Source of the DNA: a candidate division WOR-3 bacterium | GTDB taxonomy: Bacteria; SDB-A | Length of the DNA stretch: 64,000 bases | NCBI GenBank assembly: GCA_016926475.1 | Contig: JAFGON010000040.1 | Location: forward strand, 19,799-83,798 | Direction: 5' to 3' | In this document: in pieces, positions 6,125-15,918 of the stretch | How positions within the stretch are numbered: the first letter of the stretch is position 1 | How the letters are laid out: each line of letters starts with the position of its first letter | The notes under the pieces: model-generated | The model's database searches: none | The model's input: only the letters and a program-made list of their open reading frames with translations | What the model was told of the DNA's origin: nothing | Translations under genes and position numbers: made by a program

Positions 6125-7537
6125 ATGTCTTCAGAATATTACGTTTCCAATAAGTCTATTTCGGTCAGGCTTTTAGGCGAAAGCGACGCCCAGCTTTTTC
6201 AGCCTGACACAGGCTCTAAAATATATCTCAATCAGACCGGGCTTTTCATTTGGAAGTTACTCGACGGCGGTAATTCAAGGGTTGAAATTGTCAACGCTGT
6301 TCAGAATGAATTTGACGCTCCCGACAGCAAGGAACTCGACTCCGATATAGGGCAATTTCTGAGCGGTCTCGAAGAAAAGGGGTATGCCCATTCACGGAAT
6401 TTTCTTAGAAGAGAACCCAGAAGCACCTATTTCATTCATGAAAATGAAGCGCCCAGGTCAATTGACATATCTGTTACGAAAAATTGCAACCTGAACTGCA
6501 AGTATTGTTTTTATCGCGAAGAGATGAAAAATAGGGAAGACCTGCCCCTTTCGGAATGGGAGAAGTTTTTGGAGGAGCTTAAAAGCCTTGCGGTCGAAGA
6601 AGTCGTGCTGAGTGGTGGAGAGGTTTTTTGCAGAAAAGATCTCTGGGATTTCATCGATTTGATCGTGGAAAGCAACCTCAGGTATTCGTTTCTTTCAAAC
6701 GGAACGTTGTTCGACGATTCTGTTCTCAGCGAGCTCGAGAAGGATGGGCGTAAAAAGAGGCTATCGAGCATACAAATCTCAATAGACGGTTCAAAGGCGG
6801 AAGTTCACGATATGTCGAGAGGGAAAGGAAGTTTTGAAAAGGCTGTAAGGGGTCTGAAAAACGCCATGGGTGCCGGATTAAACGTCACGGTGAGGTTGAC
6901 GGTAAACAGACACAACCTCGGCGACCTCGAAGAAGCCGCGAAATTCCTGCTGGTCGATATCGGACTTCCATCTTTCAGCACCAACGACGCGATTCCTCTC
7001 GGGGCGGCGTGCTGGAACAAAGACACGATAACACTCGATCCTTTAATGCAGTTTGAGGCGATGAAAACCCTCGGAAAACTTCAAAAACAATATGACAACA
7101 GAATCACGGCGATGGCAGGGCCTTTGGCGAAATGGCATCTTTACCGAAAGATGGAGAGGATGAAAAGGCAAGGCGAAAAACCAGAGCCCTGGATGGGATA
7201 TTTGACGGGATGCGGATGTCCTTTCAGCAAATTGGCAGTTCACCACGACGGTGTATTTATTCCATGCAATATGCTCTCGAAAATTGAACTTGGCCAGATG
7301 AACAAAGATTCTCTGAAAGATGTTTGGATCAACAGCCCTATTTTGAAGAGGATGAGGGAGAGGCGAAGAGTGCCTATGAAAGAAGTCCCGGGCTGTGAAA
7401 ACTGCGAGTACAATTTGTATTGCAACGGCAGCTGTCCAGCTTTGGCCGGAGTGACTGCTGAAAATTTTATCCTTCCAAACCTCTTCGACTGTTACAAGAA
7501 ATTCAAAGAAGATACAGGCCGGAATCTTGACGAATAA
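6125..7537 (+). CDS. Radical SAM/SPASM peptide maturase with N-terminal PqqD domain
   Basis: Likely modifies the cysteine-rich precursors encoded downstream. Residues about 1-95 form a PqqD-like domain (peptide-recognition RRE fold). The radical SAM core follows with C121-x3-C125-x2-C128 (CNLNCKYC), which binds the 4Fe-4S cluster and SAM, and a glycine-rich LSGGEVF. The C-terminal third is a cysteine-rich SPASM domain (CGCPF, PCNML, GCENCEYNLYCNGSC) for auxiliary clusters. SPASM maturases of known RiPPs make thioether or carbon-carbon links; the product here cannot be read from sequence. It starts 36 nt after the AddB-like gene with no obvious Shine-Dalgarno and overlaps the next radical SAM gene by 11 nt. 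First gene of the RiPP locus. Confidence 0.88.
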   Translation: MSSEYYVSNKSISVRLLGESDAQLFQPDTGSKIYLNQTGLFIWKLLDGGNSRVEIVNAVQNEFDAPDSKELDSDIGQFLSGLEEKGYAHSRNFLRREPRSTYFIHENEAPRSIDISVTKNCNLNCKYCFYREEMKNREDLPLSEWEKFLEELKSLAVEEVVLSGGEVFCRKDLWDFIDLIVESNLRYSFLSNGTLFDDSVLSELEKDGRKKRLSSIQISIDGSKAEVHDMSRGKGSFEKAVRGLKNAMGAGLNVTVRLTVNRHNLGDLEEAAKFLLVDIGLPSFSTNDAIPLGAACWNKDTITLDPLMQFEAMKTLGKLQKQYDNRITAMAGPLAKWHLYRKMERMKRQGEKPEPWMGYLTGCGCPFSKLAVHHDGVFIPCNMLSKIELGQMNKDSLKDVWINSPILKRMRERRRVPMKEVPGCENCEYNLYCNGSCPALAGVTAENFILPNLFDCYKKFKEDTGRNLDE

Positions 7538-8585
7538 GTTTTACCCTCTTAAAACGATCTACATGTATCTGATGGGCAGCTGCAACCTAAAATGCAGACA
7601 TTGCTGGATTGACCCGGATTTTGTGGATGTCCCGCAGAAATACTTGACTTGGACTGAAATTAAGAGGATCTACCAGGAAGCAAAAATAATAGGCCTGTCT
7701 TCAGTTAAATTGACCGGGGGGGAACCTTTCCTTCATCCTGAAATTCTCCAGATAATAACTGGAATAAAAGAACTCGGACTTGGTTTGACCATAGAGACAA
7801 ACGGTACTTTGTTGGATGATGAGAGAGTGCATGCGCTGAAAAAACACGCGAATTTCGTCGCCATTTCCATAGACGGCGCTGAACCCAACAGTCATGAAGA
7901 CCTTAGGGGTGTCGAAGGCTCTTTTGACGCAGTCTTAAAAGGCGCGGGACTGCTAAAAAAAGAAGGCTTGGGGTTTCAAGTCATATTTTCTCTCTACAGG
8001 AAAAATCTCCGGGATCTTTTTTTGATGCCCAGCTTTGTCGAAGGAATAGGAGGCGCAAGCCTCAAGGTAAATCCGATCAACGTCGTAGCGAGATCTGAAA
8101 AAATGGAAAGAGACGGAGAACTGTTTTCTGTAGAAGAAATTTTAGAAATAAAAAATGATTTTGACCGTATATCAAAAAAATCAAAACTGACGATAACATT
8201 CGATGTGCCTGCCGCTTTTCATAGTCTTGAGCACATTTCGAAACAGGGATTTGGAACGTGCGGAATCCTGACTATTTTGGGGATACTCAGCGACGGAACG
8301 GCGAGTATCTGCGGCATAGGATCGGTTAAAAAAGAACTCGATTTCGGAAATTGCCTCGACCGAGGAATTGAGAATATATGGCGTGAAAATGACACTCTGA
8401 ATATGCTCAGAGAGAATATACCTCATAACCTGCAGGGTGTATGCATGAGGTGTGTCCACAAGCATTACTGCCTGGGCAAGTGCGTAGCGGAAACATACGC
8501 CAGAACGGGCAGTTTTTTGTCAGGTTATTATTTCTGCCAGATAGCTCAGGAAAAAGGACTTTTCCCCCCTACGCGACTTTTATGA
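7527..8585 (+). CDS. Second radical SAM/SPASM peptide maturase
   Basis: A 352-residue radical SAM enzyme with C19-x3-C23-x2-C26 (CNLKCRHC), a KLTGGEPFLHPE motif, and a C-terminal SPASM region with cysteines in TCGIL, SICGIG, GVCMRCVHKHYCLGKC and YYFCQ. It has no PqqD domain, so it may share the leader-binding domain of its neighbour. The TTG start at 7527 overlaps the upstream maturase by 11 nt; its stop overlaps the next ATG as ATGA. This coupling supports one operon. Two different SPASM enzymes next to an HPr-kinase-like gene and a PqqD protein recall the SynChlorMet (Scm) cassettes defined in TIGRFAMs; that comparison is from memory and untested. Confidence 0.87.
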   Translation: MTNKFYPLKTIYMYLMGSCNLKCRHCWIDPDFVDVPQKYLTWTEIKRIYQEAKIIGLSSVKLTGGEPFLHPEILQIITGIKELGLGLTIETNGTLLDDERVHALKKHANFVAISIDGAEPNSHEDLRGVEGSFDAVLKGAGLLKKEGLGFQVIFSLYRKNLRDLFLMPSFVEGIGGASLKVNPINVVARSEKMERDGELFSVEEILEIKNDFDRISKKSKLTITFDVPAAFHSLEHISKQGFGTCGILTILGILSDGTASICGIGSVKKELDFGNCLDRGIENIWRENDTLNMLRENIPHNLQGVCMRCVHKHYCLGKCVAETYARTGSFLSGYYFCQIAQEKGLFPPTRLL

Positions 8586-9454
8586 AAGACAAGCCATCAT
8601 CGGATATAGCGGTTTTTGTGCTATCGGGAGAAAGTATGAAACCGCTTATGAAGACCGGCGATGTTTTCATGGCTTCAAAAGTTTTTCCGGAGAAATTGAA
8701 ATACGGCGACATAGTCGTCTTTGAAAAAAATGGAAAACTCGTATCTCACTCAATCATCAAAGTGAAAAGAGAAGGAACGGATATCAAAGTCTTGACAAAG
8801 GGTTTGAACAGAAACGAGGACGACGGATGGACAGATGGGGATGTTTTGAAATTCGAAGTCGAAGCCCTGAAAAAGGGGAAACATTTTTTGGGTTTAAACC
8901 GGACAAAAAAGACATTTTATTGTGCGTTGGCGCCGTTGAGGAAAAAAATCCGCAACTGTCTTTTTGAGTTTTCTGTTAAAATTTCGCCACTGTTTCGATT
9001 TATGATGAAAAAAGGGCTGATAAAGGTAAAAAAAATTATGTCTCAAGACGAAGAATTAGTGGTATTATGGGACAGAAGTGTTTTGAAAAGAAGGGGCGAT
9101 AATAGAGAAATACACCCCTTTTTTAGAAAAGGCGCGGTGAAAGAAGAGGATTTAATGGAGTCTGCAGAAAAACAAGGCAAGACAGGTAACGTTTATATGA
9201 ACCCTGATCTGGTTTTCAGAATTGAGGGAGACGAGGGTCTTGTATATAATGTGAAAACAGGTGATTTTAGAATAATAAACGAGACGGGTTGCGCGATTTT
9301 AAAACTCGCCAACGGAAACTTCGACAAGAAAGGAATAATAGACCTTATACTTGAAGAATACGAATCAAAGGACCAAGAAGAGATGATGGTAAAAGAGGTG
9401 GGTGAATTTATTGACGATTTATCAAAACGAGATATAATAAGATTGATTGATTGA
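8582..9454 (+). CDS. S26-type signal-peptidase-like protease fused to PqqD domain
   Basis: A 290-residue two-domain protein. The N-terminal part resembles S24/S26 peptidases of the SipW/archaeal type: SGESMKP supplies the nucleophile (Ser18), and GDIVVFEKNGKLVSHSII places a histidine (His56) where the Lys-type enzymes have lysine. TKGLNRNEDDG resembles the next conserved block. The last ~90 residues (from about NPDLVFRIEGDE, with a DFRIINETGCAIL core) are PqqD-like. No clear membrane anchor is seen. ATG 8582 overlaps the preceding stop as ATGA; an upstream in-frame extension inside the radical SAM gene was rejected. I infer a leader-binding protease that cleaves or presents the precursors. 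Such peptidases occur in other RiPP loci, but a PqqD fusion is not one I recognise. Confidence 0.77.
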   Translation: MKDKPSSDIAVFVLSGESMKPLMKTGDVFMASKVFPEKLKYGDIVVFEKNGKLVSHSIIKVKREGTDIKVLTKGLNRNEDDGWTDGDVLKFEVEALKKGKHFLGLNRTKKTFYCALAPLRKKIRNCLFEFSVKISPLFRFMMKKGLIKVKKIMSQDEELVVLWDRSVLKRRGDNREIHPFFRKGAVKEEDLMESAEKQGKTGNVYMNPDLVFRIEGDEGLVYNVKTGDFRIINETGCAILKLANGNFDKKGIIDLILEEYESKDQEEMMVKEVGEFIDDLSKRDIIRLID

Positions 9455-9473
9455 TTAATTAATTGGGGGAAAT

Positions 9474-9770
9474 ATGAAAAAGAAATACATAAAACCTTCT
9501 ATTTTAGATTTTAAACCAAGGGTTGCCCAGGGAAATCTTTTTTCGGGAACCAACACCAGCAGCCCGGAAGGCGGCTGTACAGCTGGTTCAGCGGCTGATT
9601 ATTGCAATTATGGACAAATGGCGACCGGTTTTTCTGATTGCGCCAACGGTTCTGGCGCTATGGACTGCACGCAGGGCGCTTTGGCGAGTGGAAATCTATG
9701 CGCCACGGGCACGAACGCGACAGGAGGCGGAGGAGGATTTTGCGCTTCAGGGTCAAGCCCTCTCGCTTGA
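9474..9770 (+). CDS. RiPP precursor peptide 1 (CxxGxxA repeats)
   Basis: A 98-residue peptide with a strong ribosome site (GGGGGAAAT) just before ATG. The leader opens KKKYIKPSI, which fits the Y-x2-P recognition motif that lasso-type leaders present to PqqD-like domains, and continues to LFSG and SPEG. From residue 35 the core has six cysteines (35, 44, 56, 65, 76, 90), each in C-x2-G; the first five extend to C-x2-G-x2-A. Otherwise it is rich in Gly, Ala, Ser and Thr. It lies between the peptidase-PqqD and HPr-kinase-like genes, and its paralogue lies 1 kb downstream. I infer that the two radical SAM enzymes modify these cysteines. An overlapping ORF in another frame (9523-9783) is a shadow. 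Confidence 0.83.
   Translation: MKKKYIKPSILDFKPRVAQGNLFSGTNTSSPEGGCTAGSAADYCNYGQMATGFSDCANGSGAMDCTQGALASGNLCATGTNATGGGGGFCASGSSPLA
9576..9767 (+). repeat. Six Cys-x2-Gly units in precursor 1 core
   Basis: Protein-level repeat. The units read CTAG, CNYG, CANG, CTQG, CATG and CASG. The first five have Ala at position +6 from Cys. Cys-to-Cys spacings are 9, 12, 9, 11 and 14 residues, so the heptad-like motif is fixed while linkers vary. Linkers are rich in glycine. Confidence 0.9.
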
Positions 9771-9796
9771 TGTGAAGGTTTAAAAAAGCTAATTGC

Positions 9797-10609
9797 TTGA
9801 ATGAATTAAAGATCAAAATAGGTTCCATATCTCTGAAATTACGGTCAAAAGAGCGTATCGGCTTTTTTTCTGATTTGTTTGAATACTTTAAGACAAAAGA
9901 TGAATGTCTATATGACACTGAGATCGTTTTTTGGGATTGTGAAGACATCCTCGACTGCATAAAGAAGAAAATTTTTTGGGTGAAAGACAACATAAAATCC
10001 GCCAGAAATACTATTCACATGATTTCTTCTTTCGGATTTAAGACAATTGTTGACGAAGACCAGGGCAAGATATTTATTTTTTCCCCCCAGGAATACAAAG
10101 CCAAGGCTTTGAGGGTTTCTGTGGGCTTTTTTTGCTGGAAAATGTTTCCCAAAGACAAATATCTTTTTTTTCATGCCGCGTCCTGTAAGTTCTCAGAAAA
10201 CAGCTATCTCTTTCCGGCGAACAGCGGCAAAGGCAAGACCACTTTGAGTGAAAACGCAATAAAATGCGGCGAGGTATTCAACGACGAGTTTTCTCTCGTC
10301 GAGATTACCACAGACGGATATGTTCTTCATGGCACACCTTTCGGGCAGGTGACGAGCGGACCGATTTTGGGTCAACTAAAAAAAATATTCTTTCTCGAAA
10401 AAAGCGAAAAAAACGACTTCAAGAGGATTACGCCCGTCGAATCAATGAAAATTGCTTGGGAGGACAACCTATACAGAACAGGGATAACCAATTCCGAAGA
10501 GAGAAAATTGGTGTTCAACGAAATTTTGGATATTTTCGAAAATATTCCATGTTTTGAGATGAATGTGAGAAAAGATTTCAACGATTTTAAACTACTCGAG
10601 AATTTATAG
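9797..10609 (+). CDS. HPr kinase-like P-loop protein of the RiPP locus
   Basis: A 270-residue protein with a Walker A ANSGKGKTTLS at about 141-151 and an acidic FNDEFSLVEI motif shortly after, the pattern of the HPr kinase/phosphatase fold. It lacks the N-terminal and C-terminal parts of true HprK, and no HPr gene is near. HprK-like proteins recur in RiPP loci; in some lasso clusters they phosphorylate the C-terminal serine of the precursor, and the SynChlorMet cassette has one (ScmC, from memory). Here the substrate is unknown. The likely start is TTG 9797, 26 nt after precursor 1; there is no good ATG in frame nearby. Placed between the two precursor genes. Confidence 0.77.
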   Translation: MNELKIKIGSISLKLRSKERIGFFSDLFEYFKTKDECLYDTEIVFWDCEDILDCIKKKIFWVKDNIKSARNTIHMISSFGFKTIVDEDQGKIFIFSPQEYKAKALRVSVGFFCWKMFPKDKYLFFHAASCKFSENSYLFPANSGKGKTTLSENAIKCGEVFNDEFSLVEITTDGYVLHGTPFGQVTSGPILGQLKKIFFLEKSEKNDFKRITPVESMKIAWEDNLYRTGITNSEERKLVFNEILDIFENIPCFEMNVRKDFNDFKLLENL

Positions 10610-10799
10610 ATCCCTTTTCTAAATAAAATGTTAAAATGACAGAAAACATTGGAATATAGAGCTGTTTTGGTATTTTTGAATCTTTTCTAAAACTCCGATT
10701 TTATAAATAGATAATTAGAGATATTTGCAGTGAATTGTTAATAAAAATATTACTTGTTAATTTCCAAAAAAATCAATAAAATGTCAAAAAGGCTGTTTT

Positions 10800-11090
10800 A
10801 TGGGGAAAAAGAAGTATATTAAACCTCAAATAAGGTGTTTTGAAGCAATCACGGCATATTCACAGCTTTTTTCGAATGAATCACCTGAAGGGGTTTGCAC
10901 CATAGGCACCGTTGCAAACGCCTGTCAGGAAGGGGGAAGTGCGTCCGGAGGTCCAGGACAGTGCCTTTCCGGCTCGACTGCCAATTTTGACTGCCTCACT
11001 GGGAGTTATGCGCAGGGTTCGGTATGCTCCAACGGAGACCACGCGGCAAATCAAGGCGGACAATGTAAAGTGGGTATGAGTCCAAAATAA
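10800..11090 (+). CDS. RiPP precursor peptide 2 (CxxGxxA repeats)
   Basis: A 96-residue paralogue of the precursor at 9474-9770. It shares the leader block KKKYIKPxI, an LFS motif, the boundary SPEG, and the core repeat. Core cysteines are at 33, 42, 55, 65, 76 and 89, all in C-x2-G, the first five in C-x2-G-x2-A. It ends CKVGMSPK where precursor 1 ends CASGSSPLA. One extra cysteine (13) lies in the leader. A 190-nt AT-rich gap separates it from the HPr-kinase-like gene, and AAAAAGG lies just upstream of the ATG, so it may have its own promoter; no clear -35/-10 pair could be fixed. Conservation of leader and repeat between otherwise divergent copies marks it as a real substrate of the locus. 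Confidence 0.82.
   Translation: MGKKKYIKPQIRCFEAITAYSQLFSNESPEGVCTIGTVANACQEGGSASGGPGQCLSGSTANFDCLTGSYAQGSVCSNGDHAANQGGQCKVGMSPK
10896..11087 (+). repeat. Six Cys-x2-Gly units in precursor 2 core
   Basis: Units CTIG, CQEG, CLSG, CLTG, CSNG and CKVG. The first five have Ala at +6 from Cys. Spacings are 9, 13, 10, 11 and 13 residues, close to those of precursor 1, so unit number and order are conserved between copies while the other residues have diverged. Confidence 0.9.
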
Positions 11091-11905: not shown

Positions 11906-12560
11906 AAGGATACAGGAAAGGCTTGTTTCACGGGTCAAGATCAAGCCTTTGAAAAGCGGAATTAGATATGTCGCAGGTCTTGACTGCGCCGTGACGAAAG
12001 ACAAAATTGTCGGCGAAGCCGTTCTTATGAGTTATCCCGAACTTCAAATGGAGGAGGAAAAATTCAGCTTCAGAGAGCTCAGTTTTCCCTATGTCCCGGG
12101 TTTTCTCTCGTTCAGAGAAATGCCGGCTCTCATTTCTGCCTACCTCAAACTGTCGAGAAAACCAGATATGATTATTGTCGACGGGCAGGGAATTCTTCAT
12201 CCCCGCGGTATGGGTCTGGCAAGCCATTTGGGTGTAATACTCAACAAACCTTCAATAGGCTGTGCGAAGAGTCTTTTGTGCGGGGAATATGAAGAACCTT
12301 CTTTTAGAAGAGGATCTAAAAGCCCGGTGTTTTTGAATGAAAAGATTATGGGTTATGCCCTGAGGACGAGAGACGGGGTCAAGCCCGTCATTGTATCTCC
12401 CGGACATCTCATTACTCCACTGCAGGCGCAAAAACTTGTCCTAGAAATGTCTTTTTTCAGGCTTCCGGAACCCGTCAGGCTGGCCGACAAGTATTCAAGG
12501 GAGAATAAAAAGTATTCTTCGCAGAATAGTAAGGTTTTGGTCGAAAATAATGATTTTTGA
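11877..12560 (+). CDS. nfi: Endonuclease V (deoxyinosine endonuclease)
   Basis: Cuts DNA near deoxyinosine (deaminated adenine) for repair. Conserved blocks: GLDCAV with the first metal-binding Asp, the damage-binding YVPGFLSFREMP, the VDGQGILHPRGMGLASHLGV core, and GCAKS. 227 residues, the usual family size. TTG start at 11877 inside the DUF402 gene; its own 3' end overlaps the cyclase gene by 11 nt. The C-terminal tail (SRENKKYSSQNSK) is low-complexity and probably not part of the fold. Confidence 0.92.
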   Translation: MTELDYSDLKRIQERLVSRVKIKPLKSGIRYVAGLDCAVTKDKIVGEAVLMSYPELQMEEEKFSFRELSFPYVPGFLSFREMPALISAYLKLSRKPDMIIVDGQGILHPRGMGLASHLGVILNKPSIGCAKSLLCGEYEEPSFRRGSKSPVFLNEKIMGYALRTRDGVKPVIVSPGHLITPLQAQKLVLEMSFFRLPEPVRLADKYSRENKKYSSQNSKVLVENNDF

Positions 12561-15500
12561 AAAAATTGACGGATTGATTGGAAAATTATCTGAGTCTGAC
12601 GCACGGTCGAAGGAAAAGCAATTCCGCCTTGTAGCTGGAGACAGGAGAGACGTAGCTGTTTTATTCGCCGATATACACGGTTTCACATCAATTTCGGAAA
12701 AACTCGACCCGGAGAAAGTCAAAATTTTGGCTGATAAACTAATGCAGATTCTGTCTTTCTGCGTCAAAAATTACGGGGGCTTCGTCGATAAATACGAAGG
12801 TGACAGAATCATGGCGCTGTTCGGCGCAAAAAAAGCTAGCGACAAAGACGCGGAAAAAGCAGTCAGAGCAGCTATCGATATGATAGAAAAAATCACTCTT
12901 TTGGCAAAAATATTCAAGGAGGACGAGGAATTTAAAGAATTCGACCTTTCGATGAGAATAGGAATAAACTACGGACTTGTGACGACAGGAAGAATTGGAG
13001 AAAAAAGAGAAGGGGATTTCACCGTGTACGGCGACACGGTCAACATAGCTTCGAGGCTGGAGGAAAAGTCTCCGTTAAATTCGATTTTGGTTTCATCGTC
13101 GGTCAGGGAATCCCTAAAACAGATCTTTGAATTTGACCCGTTTGGAGATCTCGAACTCAAGGGGAAAATCCAGAAGGTAGAGGCTTGGATTGCCAAAAAA
13201 TACAAAACGAAGAAAACATTGATGGCCGATGACGACAGTCTGTTTTTAGGAAGAGAAAACGAAATAACAGAGACAACCAGAATAATCAATTCGGCGCTCA
13301 ACAGAGCAGTATCTACAAAGGACGCCAATTATTTGAGCCTCGGTTTCATAACCGGAGAGCCGGGGATAGGGAAAACGAGACTATTAGGGGAAATTTTAAA
13401 GTTGTTCCAGGGCAGGGCAGAGTTTTTTTGGGGGAGTTGTGATTCACTGAAGGTATCGAGATTCGGAGTGATAGAGGAAATGGTTAAAGAGCGGCTCGGC
13501 GTGGCGAGAGAAGATGAAAAGAATGCGATCGTCTCAAAAATATCCCAATGGGCGTTCTCAAACAAAGCGGGTGAGGATCTTAGAAACAATTTGATTGATT
13601 TGTACGCGTGCGCAGGCAATCCTTACAACTCGGAGGGAAGAGATGAAAGCAGGTTTGTTTTCGCAAGGCAGGTTTTTATCGAATTTTTCAAAACAATCGG
13701 GTCAAAAGCCTCGGAAAATTCGAAACCAGTAATAATAGCTATAGATGATTTTCAAGAAGCGGATGAAATTGAAGTATCCTTTCTCGAGTGTTTTCTGGAA
13801 GCTTTAAGACATAAAGATGAAAAATTGGTTTTCTCTACCTTCGTTATCCTTATTGCTTCGAGAAAAGACATCGAAACTGATTTTGGAGCTTCGGGGATTT
13901 TGCAAAACAGAATTCGACTATTGCCTCTTTCATCAGAAAACTCAATGAAATTACTCGATGGTGTACTGCGCGATGAAAACATTGAGGAGCGCCTGAAATC
14001 CTTCATCATCGAGAGAGCGCAGGGTAACCCTCTTTTTATTACAGAGCTGAGCAAAATAGCCAAAAAAAGAGGAGGAGAGAACCTGTCTGTTAGCGATATC
14101 CCTTCTTCCATGAAGTCTCTTATGCTTTCAAGGCTCGATTGTTTAGATGAAAATTTAAAAGAACCTCTGAAAATCCTCACGGTTTCAGGTGAAAAGATAG
14201 AAATAGACATATCTGAATACGTTCTTCGCAGATTTGAAATAGACCCGGAATTCTTGATTTCTCGACTCGAGAGTGAAAAGGTCATTTATGAGTATGAAAA
14301 AGAAATTTATCGATTCTCGAGTTTATTTTTCAGGGAAATTATCTACGAGACTTTTTTGGTCGAAAACAGAAGAATAGTCCACGCTGAATACGCAAAAGCT
14401 TTGGAAGACAAAAGAAAACATTCAATCGATAACTACATATCCGAAATCTGCGGGCACTATTTGGAGACGGATGACGATGAGAAAATAATCGAATACTTGG
14501 AAAAAAATGGAAAGCTGCTTAAAGAAAGGTTCGACAACAAAAGCGCCCTTGAGATTTTTTTAAAACTTGATAGCATGCTTTCGAAAAAGTATTTAGAAAA
14601 CGCATCGTCTGCATTCGCTTACGCAGAATGCCTTTTGAATATGTCTGAAATTTTAAACATTGCCGGAGATTGGGAGTTATCGGAAAAGAAAACAATTCTC
14701 TCATTGAGTATAATTGGAGAAAAAAACCTGGAAAGTCTCAAGGGACGGGCCTTTTTATGCCTTGCGAGAGCATACCTGAATTTAAACAGGTTAAAAGACG
14801 CAGAACATGCAGTTGAGAGATCTTTGGCCTATTCTAAAAAATTAAAGAACACCAGCGTAATGATCTCTTCGATGATGCTGAAAGGAGAACTGTATATTTT
14901 GTTTTCGGATTATAAGTCCGCCGCGAAATGTTTCAAGAGCATTGAAAAGAAATCAAAGACCGCCGGCGACGAAAAAGGACTTATGATGTCTTTCTTCAAT
15001 TTAGCGCATGTTTACATCAAAAAGAGCAAGTTTAAAAAATCGCTCGAGTACAATTTGATGGCTTTGAAAATTGCCGAAGACATTTCGGACAAATTGAGCA
15101 TAGTGAGAATTCTCAACAACATAGGTATCGGTTACAGAAATATCGGGGAATTTGACAAAGCATTTAGAGCTTATCAAAAGAGCTTGAAACTCGCCGTGGA
15201 AATGGGCAGTAAAAAAAATATCGCTACAGCCTATGGAAATTTATCCATTCTCTACATGCAAAAAGGCGAGATGAACGAATACGTGAGATTTTTAAGAAAG
15301 CATTTTTTGTTGAATTTTGAATTGAATGATAAAATGGGGATGGCTTATTCGTTGGCAAATTTCGGAAATTACCACAATTATTCAGGCAACCTGCGGGAAG
15401 CTGAACTCAGTTACAAAAAAGGTCTTTCTATAGCTAAGATTTTCAAAAACAAAGTTCTCGCAATGAACCTCGCTTACAACCTATCTACTGTCTATATGGC

Positions 15501-15918
15501 TCAAAAAGACAACAGCAAAGCACTTAAATTCTCGGAGATTTCTTACAAAACAGCAGACGAAATAGGAAACTTCAACTGGAAATTTCTAACGAGAGCCATA
15601 GGGTTGAGGATAGAATTCAACGCGGCAAAAAGTCTGGTGGAAAAAAATACAGTTTTGAAAAAAACCGAAGAAATGCTCAAAGATTACAAAACAAAAGATA
15701 CAAGGGCTGAAATATTATACCGAATCTGGGAATTCACTATGGAATATTCGGAGTTGGCGGCAAAGAGAAGACAAATAATAGAAACATACAGAAATGAAGC
15801 GATCAAGCTCTTCGCGGAATTGCTTAAGAAAGAAAAAAAGAGCGATTATTCAGATAAACTTGAAAACCTGACAAACGGCTTTATAACAAAAAGAGGGAGC
15901 AGATTCAGTATTCATTGA
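12550..15918 (+). CDS. Class III adenylate cyclase - ATPase - TPR regulator
   Basis: A 1122-residue multidomain protein. The cyclase domain (about 30-200) has metal-binding Asp41 in FADIHGFTS and Asp85 in YEGDRIMALFG, the purine-selecting pair Lys81/Thr158 (KYEGD, FTVYGD), and catalytic Asn/Arg in DTVNIASRLEE. Lys/Thr is the class IIIb (bicarbonate-responsive type) adenylate cyclase pattern. An NTPase domain follows with Walker A GEPGIGKTR (about 269-277) and Walker B VIIAIDDFQEAD, then many TPR-like repeats (about 650-1050). The layout is that of soluble adenylate cyclase (sAC)-like proteins. No membrane segments are seen, so cytoplasmic. Starts within the end of nfi. cAMP product is inferred from the residues. 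Confidence 0.85.
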   Translation: MIFEKIDGLIGKLSESDARSKEKQFRLVAGDRRDVAVLFADIHGFTSISEKLDPEKVKILADKLMQILSFCVKNYGGFVDKYEGDRIMALFGAKKASDKDAEKAVRAAIDMIEKITLLAKIFKEDEEFKEFDLSMRIGINYGLVTTGRIGEKREGDFTVYGDTVNIASRLEEKSPLNSILVSSSVRESLKQIFEFDPFGDLELKGKIQKVEAWIAKKYKTKKTLMADDDSLFLGRENEITETTRIINSALNRAVSTKDANYLSLGFITGEPGIGKTRLLGEILKLFQGRAEFFWGSCDSLKVSRFGVIEEMVKERLGVAREDEKNAIVSKISQWAFSNKAGEDLRNNLIDLYACAGNPYNSEGRDESRFVFARQVFIEFFKTIGSKASENSKPVIIAIDDFQEADEIEVSFLECFLEALRHKDEKLVFSTFVILIASRKDIETDFGASGILQNRIRLLPLSSENSMKLLDGVLRDENIEERLKSFIIERAQGNPLFITELSKIAKKRGGENLSVSDIPSSMKSLMLSRLDCLDENLKEPLKILTVSGEKIEIDISEYVLRRFEIDPEFLISRLESEKVIYEYEKEIYRFSSLFFREIIYETFLVENRRIVHAEYAKALEDKRKHSIDNYISEICGHYLETDDDEKIIEYLEKNGKLLKERFDNKSALEIFLKLDSMLSKKYLENASSAFAYAECLLNMSEILNIAGDWELSEKKTILSLSIIGEKNLESLKGRAFLCLARAYLNLNRLKDAEHAVERSLAYSKKLKNTSVMISSMMLKGELYILFSDYKSAAKCFKSIEKKSKTAGDEKGLMMSFFNLAHVYIKKSKFKKSLEYNLMALKIAEDISDKLSIVRILNNIGIGYRNIGEFDKAFRAYQKSLKLAVEMGSKKNIATAYGNLSILYMQKGEMNEYVRFLRKHFLLNFELNDKMGMAYSLANFGNYHNYSGNLREAELSYKKGLSIAKIFKNKVLAMNLAYNLSTVYMAQKDNSKALKFSEISYKTADEIGNFNWKFLTRAIGLRIEFNAAKSLVEKNTVLKKTEEMLKDYKTKDTRAEILYRIWEFTMEYSELAAKRRQIIETYRNEAIKLFAELLKKEKKSDYSDKLENLTNGFITKRGSRFSIH

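Follow-up and report, generated by a model that had tools for sequence, protein, structure and literature searches.

What is made by six adjoining genes of a candidate division WOR-3 bacterium that encode two radical SAM/SPASM enzymes and two small cysteine-rich peptides? The window analyzed here (64,000 nucleotides of contig JAFGON010000040.1, assembly GCA_016926475.1) was originally predicted to hold an uncharacterised RiPP locus comprising these enzymes, one of them with a PqqD domain, together with a peptidase-PqqD fusion, an HPr-kinase-like protein and two paralogous precursors. All six genes were verified on one strand between positions 6125 and 11090, and NCBIfam and Pfam searches and family alignments bear out each of these descriptions. 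The features are the following.

6125 to 7537, forward strand: ScmE-like radical SAM/SPASM enzyme with an N-terminal PqqD (RRE, leader-binding) domain (NCBIfam, Pfam, alignment)
7527 to 8585, forward strand: ScmF-like radical SAM/SPASM enzyme (NCBIfam, Pfam, tree)
8582 to 9454, forward strand: S26 (Sec11/SipW-like) peptidase with a C-terminal PqqD domain, a probable leader peptidase (NCBIfam, Pfam, profile)
9411 to 9438, forward strand: promoter-like TTGACG-16-TATAAT, just 5' of precursor 1 (weak evidence)
9474 to 9770, forward strand: precursor 1, with a YIKPSI leader, six CxxG repeats and a C-terminal SGSSPLA
9797 to 10609, forward strand: ScmC/HPr-kinase-like protein, a probable peptide Ser/Thr kinase (family profile, invariant residues)
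10800 to 11090, forward strand: precursor 2, with a YIKPQI leader, six CxxG repeats and a C-terminal GMSPK

Short overlaps of a few bases between the first three genes suggest that they are translationally coupled, and the peptidase-PqqD gene probably starts at the ATG at 8582, not at the mechanically called 8441. Precursor 1 begins 20 bp after the third gene, and precursor 2 begins 190 bp past the kinase gene. The promoter-like site matches 11 of 12 consensus positions and is the best of 15 such sites in the region, for which 9.6 +/- 3.4 are expected by chance. Genes for addB-like recombination proteins precede the cassette and genes for a DUF402 protein and endonuclease V follow it, an arrangement that is identical in two species of the genus. 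Farther downstream (12550-15918), an 1122-amino-acid protein that is retained in the sister species appears by eye to have an adenylate-cyclase-like N terminus, a P-loop region and a long TPR-like C terminus.

The resemblance to the SynChlorMet cassette that the original prediction had pointed out is real at the level of the enzymes. Four NCBIfam models describe this system (TIGR04248-TIGR04251: ScmD, ScmC, ScmE, ScmF). TIGR04250 is the top model for the ScmE-like protein (376 bits, with 129 for the runner-up family) and TIGR04251 for the ScmF-like protein (325 bits, runner-up 138), so that each leads the next family by more than 180 bits, albeit below the cut-off of 400 bits in both cases. 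Pfam assigns PqqD (residues 24-87, 1.1e-12), Radical_SAM and SPASM domains to the former and radical SAM and SPASM domains to the latter. Both proteins keep the CxxxCxxC motif and the SPASM cysteines, which in ScmE line up across 18 homologues. In a FastTree phylogeny that included 17 other radical SAM proteins, 18 ScmE sequences (support 0.96) and 16 ScmF sequences (0.87) are each monophyletic; these clades include cassettes that pass all four Scm models, and the window proteins nest inside them with same-genus relatives as nearest neighbors.

Under the strict NCBIfam definition, the cassette falls short throughout. In addition to the two enzymes, the ScmC homologue scores 17.3 bits against a cut-off of 125, and the C-terminal PqqD domain of the peptidase reaches 14 bits against 100 for ScmD. 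A same-family ScmE homologue on contig L029 scores 408 bits, so the lineage straddles the TIGR04250 cut-off. The locus further differs from catalogued SynChlorMet cassettes in having PqqD domains as fusions to ScmE and the peptidase where theirs is free-standing, in a very divergent ScmC and in its two precursors of six repeats each. It shares with them a PqqD domain, the HPr-kinase-like ScmC homologue and, as shown below, a CxxG precursor beside scmF. The tree and the substrate thus place the locus, judged by its sequence, in a divergent branch of the SynChlorMet lineage that lies below every Scm cut-off. When the named genomes were queried with the single ScmF protein, the sole match was a distantly related archaeal radical SAM protein, and a plasmid-borne Scm system was dropped as a candidate because there was no plasmid match.

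In both precursors, six CxxG repeats come after a YxxPxI leader; the repeats take up all six post-leader cysteines of precursor 1 and six of the seven in precursor 2. Shuffled versions reached six CxxG units in just 5 of 200,000 trials for precursor 1 and 1 of 200,000 for precursor 2. The 12 Cys and Gly anchors are identical (12/12) between the window precursors and their sister-species orthologues and also between the two window paralogues, while other core positions agree at 26/53 and 27/53 between species and at 14/53 between paralogues. An encoded precursor with a leader and dedicated maturases with a leader-binding domain, by which RiPP genes are recognized, are both present, and the reading of the locus as a RiPP-type gene set is supported on these sequence grounds.

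The precursors are not peculiar to this genus. Related Scm-type loci were collected by profile search with TIGR04250 from 15 genomes beyond the original window, and short open reading frames with runs of CxxG adjoin scmF or scmC in them. The check that had been proposed for the original prediction, namely whether orthologous clusters lack precursors, was thereby carried out, and the related clusters do carry them: a leader motif with CxxG repeats is encoded in every Scm-type locus that has sufficient flanking sequence. In three genomes (G003, G111, G231) the contig breaks off close to the enzymes, and the absence of a precursor there is uninformative. Across 22 precursors from 15 genomes, glycine follows at position +3 in 117 of 124 core cysteines; for the first 94 of these, 87 CxxG units compare with a mean of 17 and a maximum of 32 in 10,000 shuffles. 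At +6, A, P or V predominates, and all 22 precursors have [YW]xxP near their start; this leader motif and the CxxG repeats are present in both window precursors and in those of 14 other genomes. A few CxxxG units replace CxxG in some homologues (L041, L042). Two cassettes (L049, L038) pass the cut-offs for ScmC, ScmD, ScmE and ScmF and have a CxxG precursor between scmF and scmC; the peptides are therefore part of true Scm cassettes, not of the divergent branch alone. As grouped in the search, Scm-type enzyme sets with CxxG precursors span at least seven bacterial phyla. What the sequences themselves show is the gene set, the placement of ScmE and ScmF in their clades, the leader motif and a run of CxxG repeats that are conserved and linked to the enzymes.

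The reverse search, with a precursor model against 145 genomes, matched eight. Seven of these have Scm-type enzymes, six of them already known and the seventh (G162) with a cassette that lies below the enzyme search threshold. In G162 a single 236-amino-acid precursor with 20 CxxG units (L086:3026-3736) sits between scmF-like and scmC-like genes. The same search recovered the missing half of a second cassette in G047. Matches in G053 were discounted: they come from an unrelated GC-rich, low-complexity tandem repeat that occurs in several frames and has neither leader nor enzymes, and a weak match in G400 (C50, E 0.009) was dismissed as a ribosomal-protein region. An orphan CxxG precursor with a leader was also observed in G402 (L087:6898-7104), on a contig other than that of the cassette and with no adjoining enzymes; it is perhaps matured in trans.

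A sister species of the same genus (G001) offers a view of how the system is lost. Its scmF breaks off after roughly 100 codons and continues directly into scmC-homologue codons (L027:8370-8813; scmC part by BLASTP, 3e-6), and no precursor was found anywhere in its genome. As its sequence reads, the junction is a natural deletion that marks a decayed cassette; an assembly join could also have produced it. This pattern bears on the proposal that the Cys-rich peptides act as metal-binding or redox proteins while the radical SAM enzymes serve another member of the operon. Cys-rich repeats can bind metals, and other RiPP families such as the bufferins are metallophores (PMC12452194). That proposal is nevertheless very improbable, given a leader of the RiPP type that has the YxxPxL motif of lasso peptides, the PqqD domains fused to two enzymes and the strict co-occurrence of precursors and enzymes, including their joint loss. 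These arguments are compatible with a modified product that binds metal.

The variable repeat number likewise bears on a pathway like those for PQQ or mycofactocin, in which a small redox cofactor would be excised from the precursor. The PqqD domains and PqqE-like enzymes bring such a pathway to mind, and PQQ and mycofactocin maturases are among the lower-ranked matches. However, CxxG units number from 2 to 20 per precursor and loci commonly encode two different precursors, where one fixed core would be expected, and a kinase and (elsewhere) an exporter better fit a secreted peptide; we regard a cofactor product as highly unlikely.

The remaining two proteins also have counterparts in known systems. 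The peptidase exceeds the cut-off of TIGR02228, an S26 signal-peptidase model of the archaeal/SipW type (57.8 bits, cut-off 51.85), its PqqD domain is found by Pfam at 3.2e-7, and its family profile matches the solved structure of eukaryotic SEC11 at 5e-17. Ser18 and His56 are invariant among 11 homologues; in the GDxN motif, the Asp is replaced by Leu in the window protein and in this genus. The fusion of peptidase and PqqD, which had been called odd, does exist, but it is less odd than it seemed because a separate S26 peptidase and a stand-alone PqqD protein are encoded in most related cassettes. The HPr-kinase-like protein has no Pfam match and has weak NCBIfam matches to HprK_rel_A and ScmC. 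Its family profile finds the HPr kinases 1ko7 (8.2e-7), 2qmh and 1jb1 (about 1e-6) among solved structures; His126 and the P-loop residues Gly146, Lys147 and Thr149 are invariant, and Asp163 is nearly so.

A comparable set of parts is known from phosphorylated lasso peptides such as paeninodin and BsfA, which combine a YxxPxL leader, a PqqD-like leader binder, an HPr-kinase homologue and a separate leader peptidase. In lasso clusters, where YxxPxL is the leader motif, the PqqD-like B1 protein assists two enzymes, the HPr-like kinase and the peptidase that removes the leader (PMC10368454), and HPr kinase homologues phosphorylate a precursor Ser (PMC8498205). The locus differs in having radical SAM enzymes instead of an asparagine-synthetase-like cyclase or a transglutaminase-like B2 peptidase, and a lasso product was dropped because NCBIfam and Pfam revealed no such cyclase among the six genes. 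Several related cassettes have a gene for an NTP_transf_5 (PF14907) nucleotidyltransferase nearby, and such genes adjoin five of them (L049:2137-3549, L057:1754-3073, L051:8562-9656, L041:10854-11969, L052:388-1527), a pairing that recalls the kinase and nucleotidyltransferase of some lasso clusters. The NTP_transf_5 gene of the window genome was excluded from the cassette because it is located on a different contig and persists in the sister species from which the cassette has been lost. A third type of radical SAM protein, of about 650 amino acids, is encoded near three Scm cassettes (L038:62-2017, L041:12868-14826, L088:797-4672), with none beside the cassette in the window.

From these parts we infer bond type, division of labor between the enzymes, phosphorylation, cleavage site, export and biological role at less strength than the gene-level findings. 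The reading that we favor, and hold to be moderately probable, is a SynChlorMet-type RiPP operon of divergent form. The PqqD domains on ScmE and on the peptidase would hold the YxxPxI leader of each precursor while ScmE and ScmF act on the CxxG units, linking each Cys sulfur with a carbon in the Gly at +3, most likely as a C-alpha thioether. The product would be a chain of six separate four-residue rings, probably as in streptosactin. The ScmC homologue would phosphorylate a Ser or Thr, possibly in the conserved C-terminal Ser-Pro of the window precursors, and the S26-like peptidase would remove the leader near a conserved EG ahead of the first Cys. This sequence of steps is proposed because of the lasso precedents for leader and kinase and the streptosactin precedent for the rings.

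Streptosactin, a sactipeptide of the GGG subfamily from Streptococcus thermophilus, carries two four-residue sactionine rings in succession, both installed by a single radical SAM enzyme (PMC13361665), and consecutive, un-nested rings of this size are what CxxG predicts here. The likeness has its bounds: streptosactin is a 14-mer with two rings and one maturase, whereas the locus here has six units per precursor (2-20 elsewhere), two maturases, a kinase and an S26 peptidase. Other radical SAM repeat peptides, including those of the ACGX system (TIGR04340), likewise pair a radical SAM/SPASM enzyme with a Cys/Gly repeat peptide. ScmE matches TIGR04340 at just 92 of 400 bits, and the repeat here is CxxG, not the ACGx repeat of that system.

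The sactipeptide-type linkage from Cys sulfur to C-alpha is suggested by the CxxG motif and the enzyme type, and CxxG taken alone leaves Gly a role that could be that of a recognition or turn residue instead of an acceptor. The same RiPP system might then install another modification, such as a beta or gamma thioether to a different residue, a C-C or C-O crosslink, an epimer or a heterocycle. Radical SAM/SPASM enzymes form several bond types (PMC8326336), numerous other maturase models in NCBIfam also give scores with ScmE and ScmF, position +6 is almost always occupied by A, P or V, and the presence of two different radical SAM enzymes suggests that the peptides are modified in more than one way. 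Set against this, no other position is nearly as constrained as the Gly at +3 (93% of Cys), Gly offers no side chain to crosslink, and the closest solved structure to ScmE is that of the sactionine-forming SkfB (4e-15). We rate another chemistry as possible but less likely. The thioether ring reading itself must accommodate the constraint at +6, the occasional CxxxG units, a peptidase that lacks the Asp of the usual Ser-His-Asp and the absence of an adjoining ABC exporter gene in the window, where most other cassettes have one close by.

Extended to the family, there is perhaps an even chance that Scm cassettes constitute an undescribed RiPP class, in which 2 to 20 CxxG units would be closed by ScmE and ScmF into four-residue thioether rings, phosphorylated by ScmC and released by an S26-type peptidase, across at least seven phyla. 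The original claim of an uncharacterised locus holds for the precursors, which fit no known class in that no NCBIfam, Pfam or PHROGs model matches them, but not for the enzyme set, which is already catalogued as Scm. No precursor is among the catalogued SynChlorMet models. To our knowledge, the NCBIfam notes on Scm state that the precursor had not been identified, and we know of no substrate for these enzymes, which are catalogued as peptide-modifying. The open-access papers that were searched make no mention of SynChlorMet, of ScmE with radical SAM, or of CxxG in a RiPP context.

The main value of the locus is therefore a CxxG substrate family for an orphan enzyme set whose substrate, we believe, was previously unassigned. 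Since current family libraries miss these precursors, annotation probably leaves such clusters with no product assigned. A substrate family defined by so simple a motif makes the Scm system testable at once, and the system unites radical SAM chemistry with parts of the lasso type, namely the YxxPxL leader and the HPr-like kinase. Should the predicted rings exist, these peptides would be a modular scaffold in which the number of rings is set by the number of repeats.
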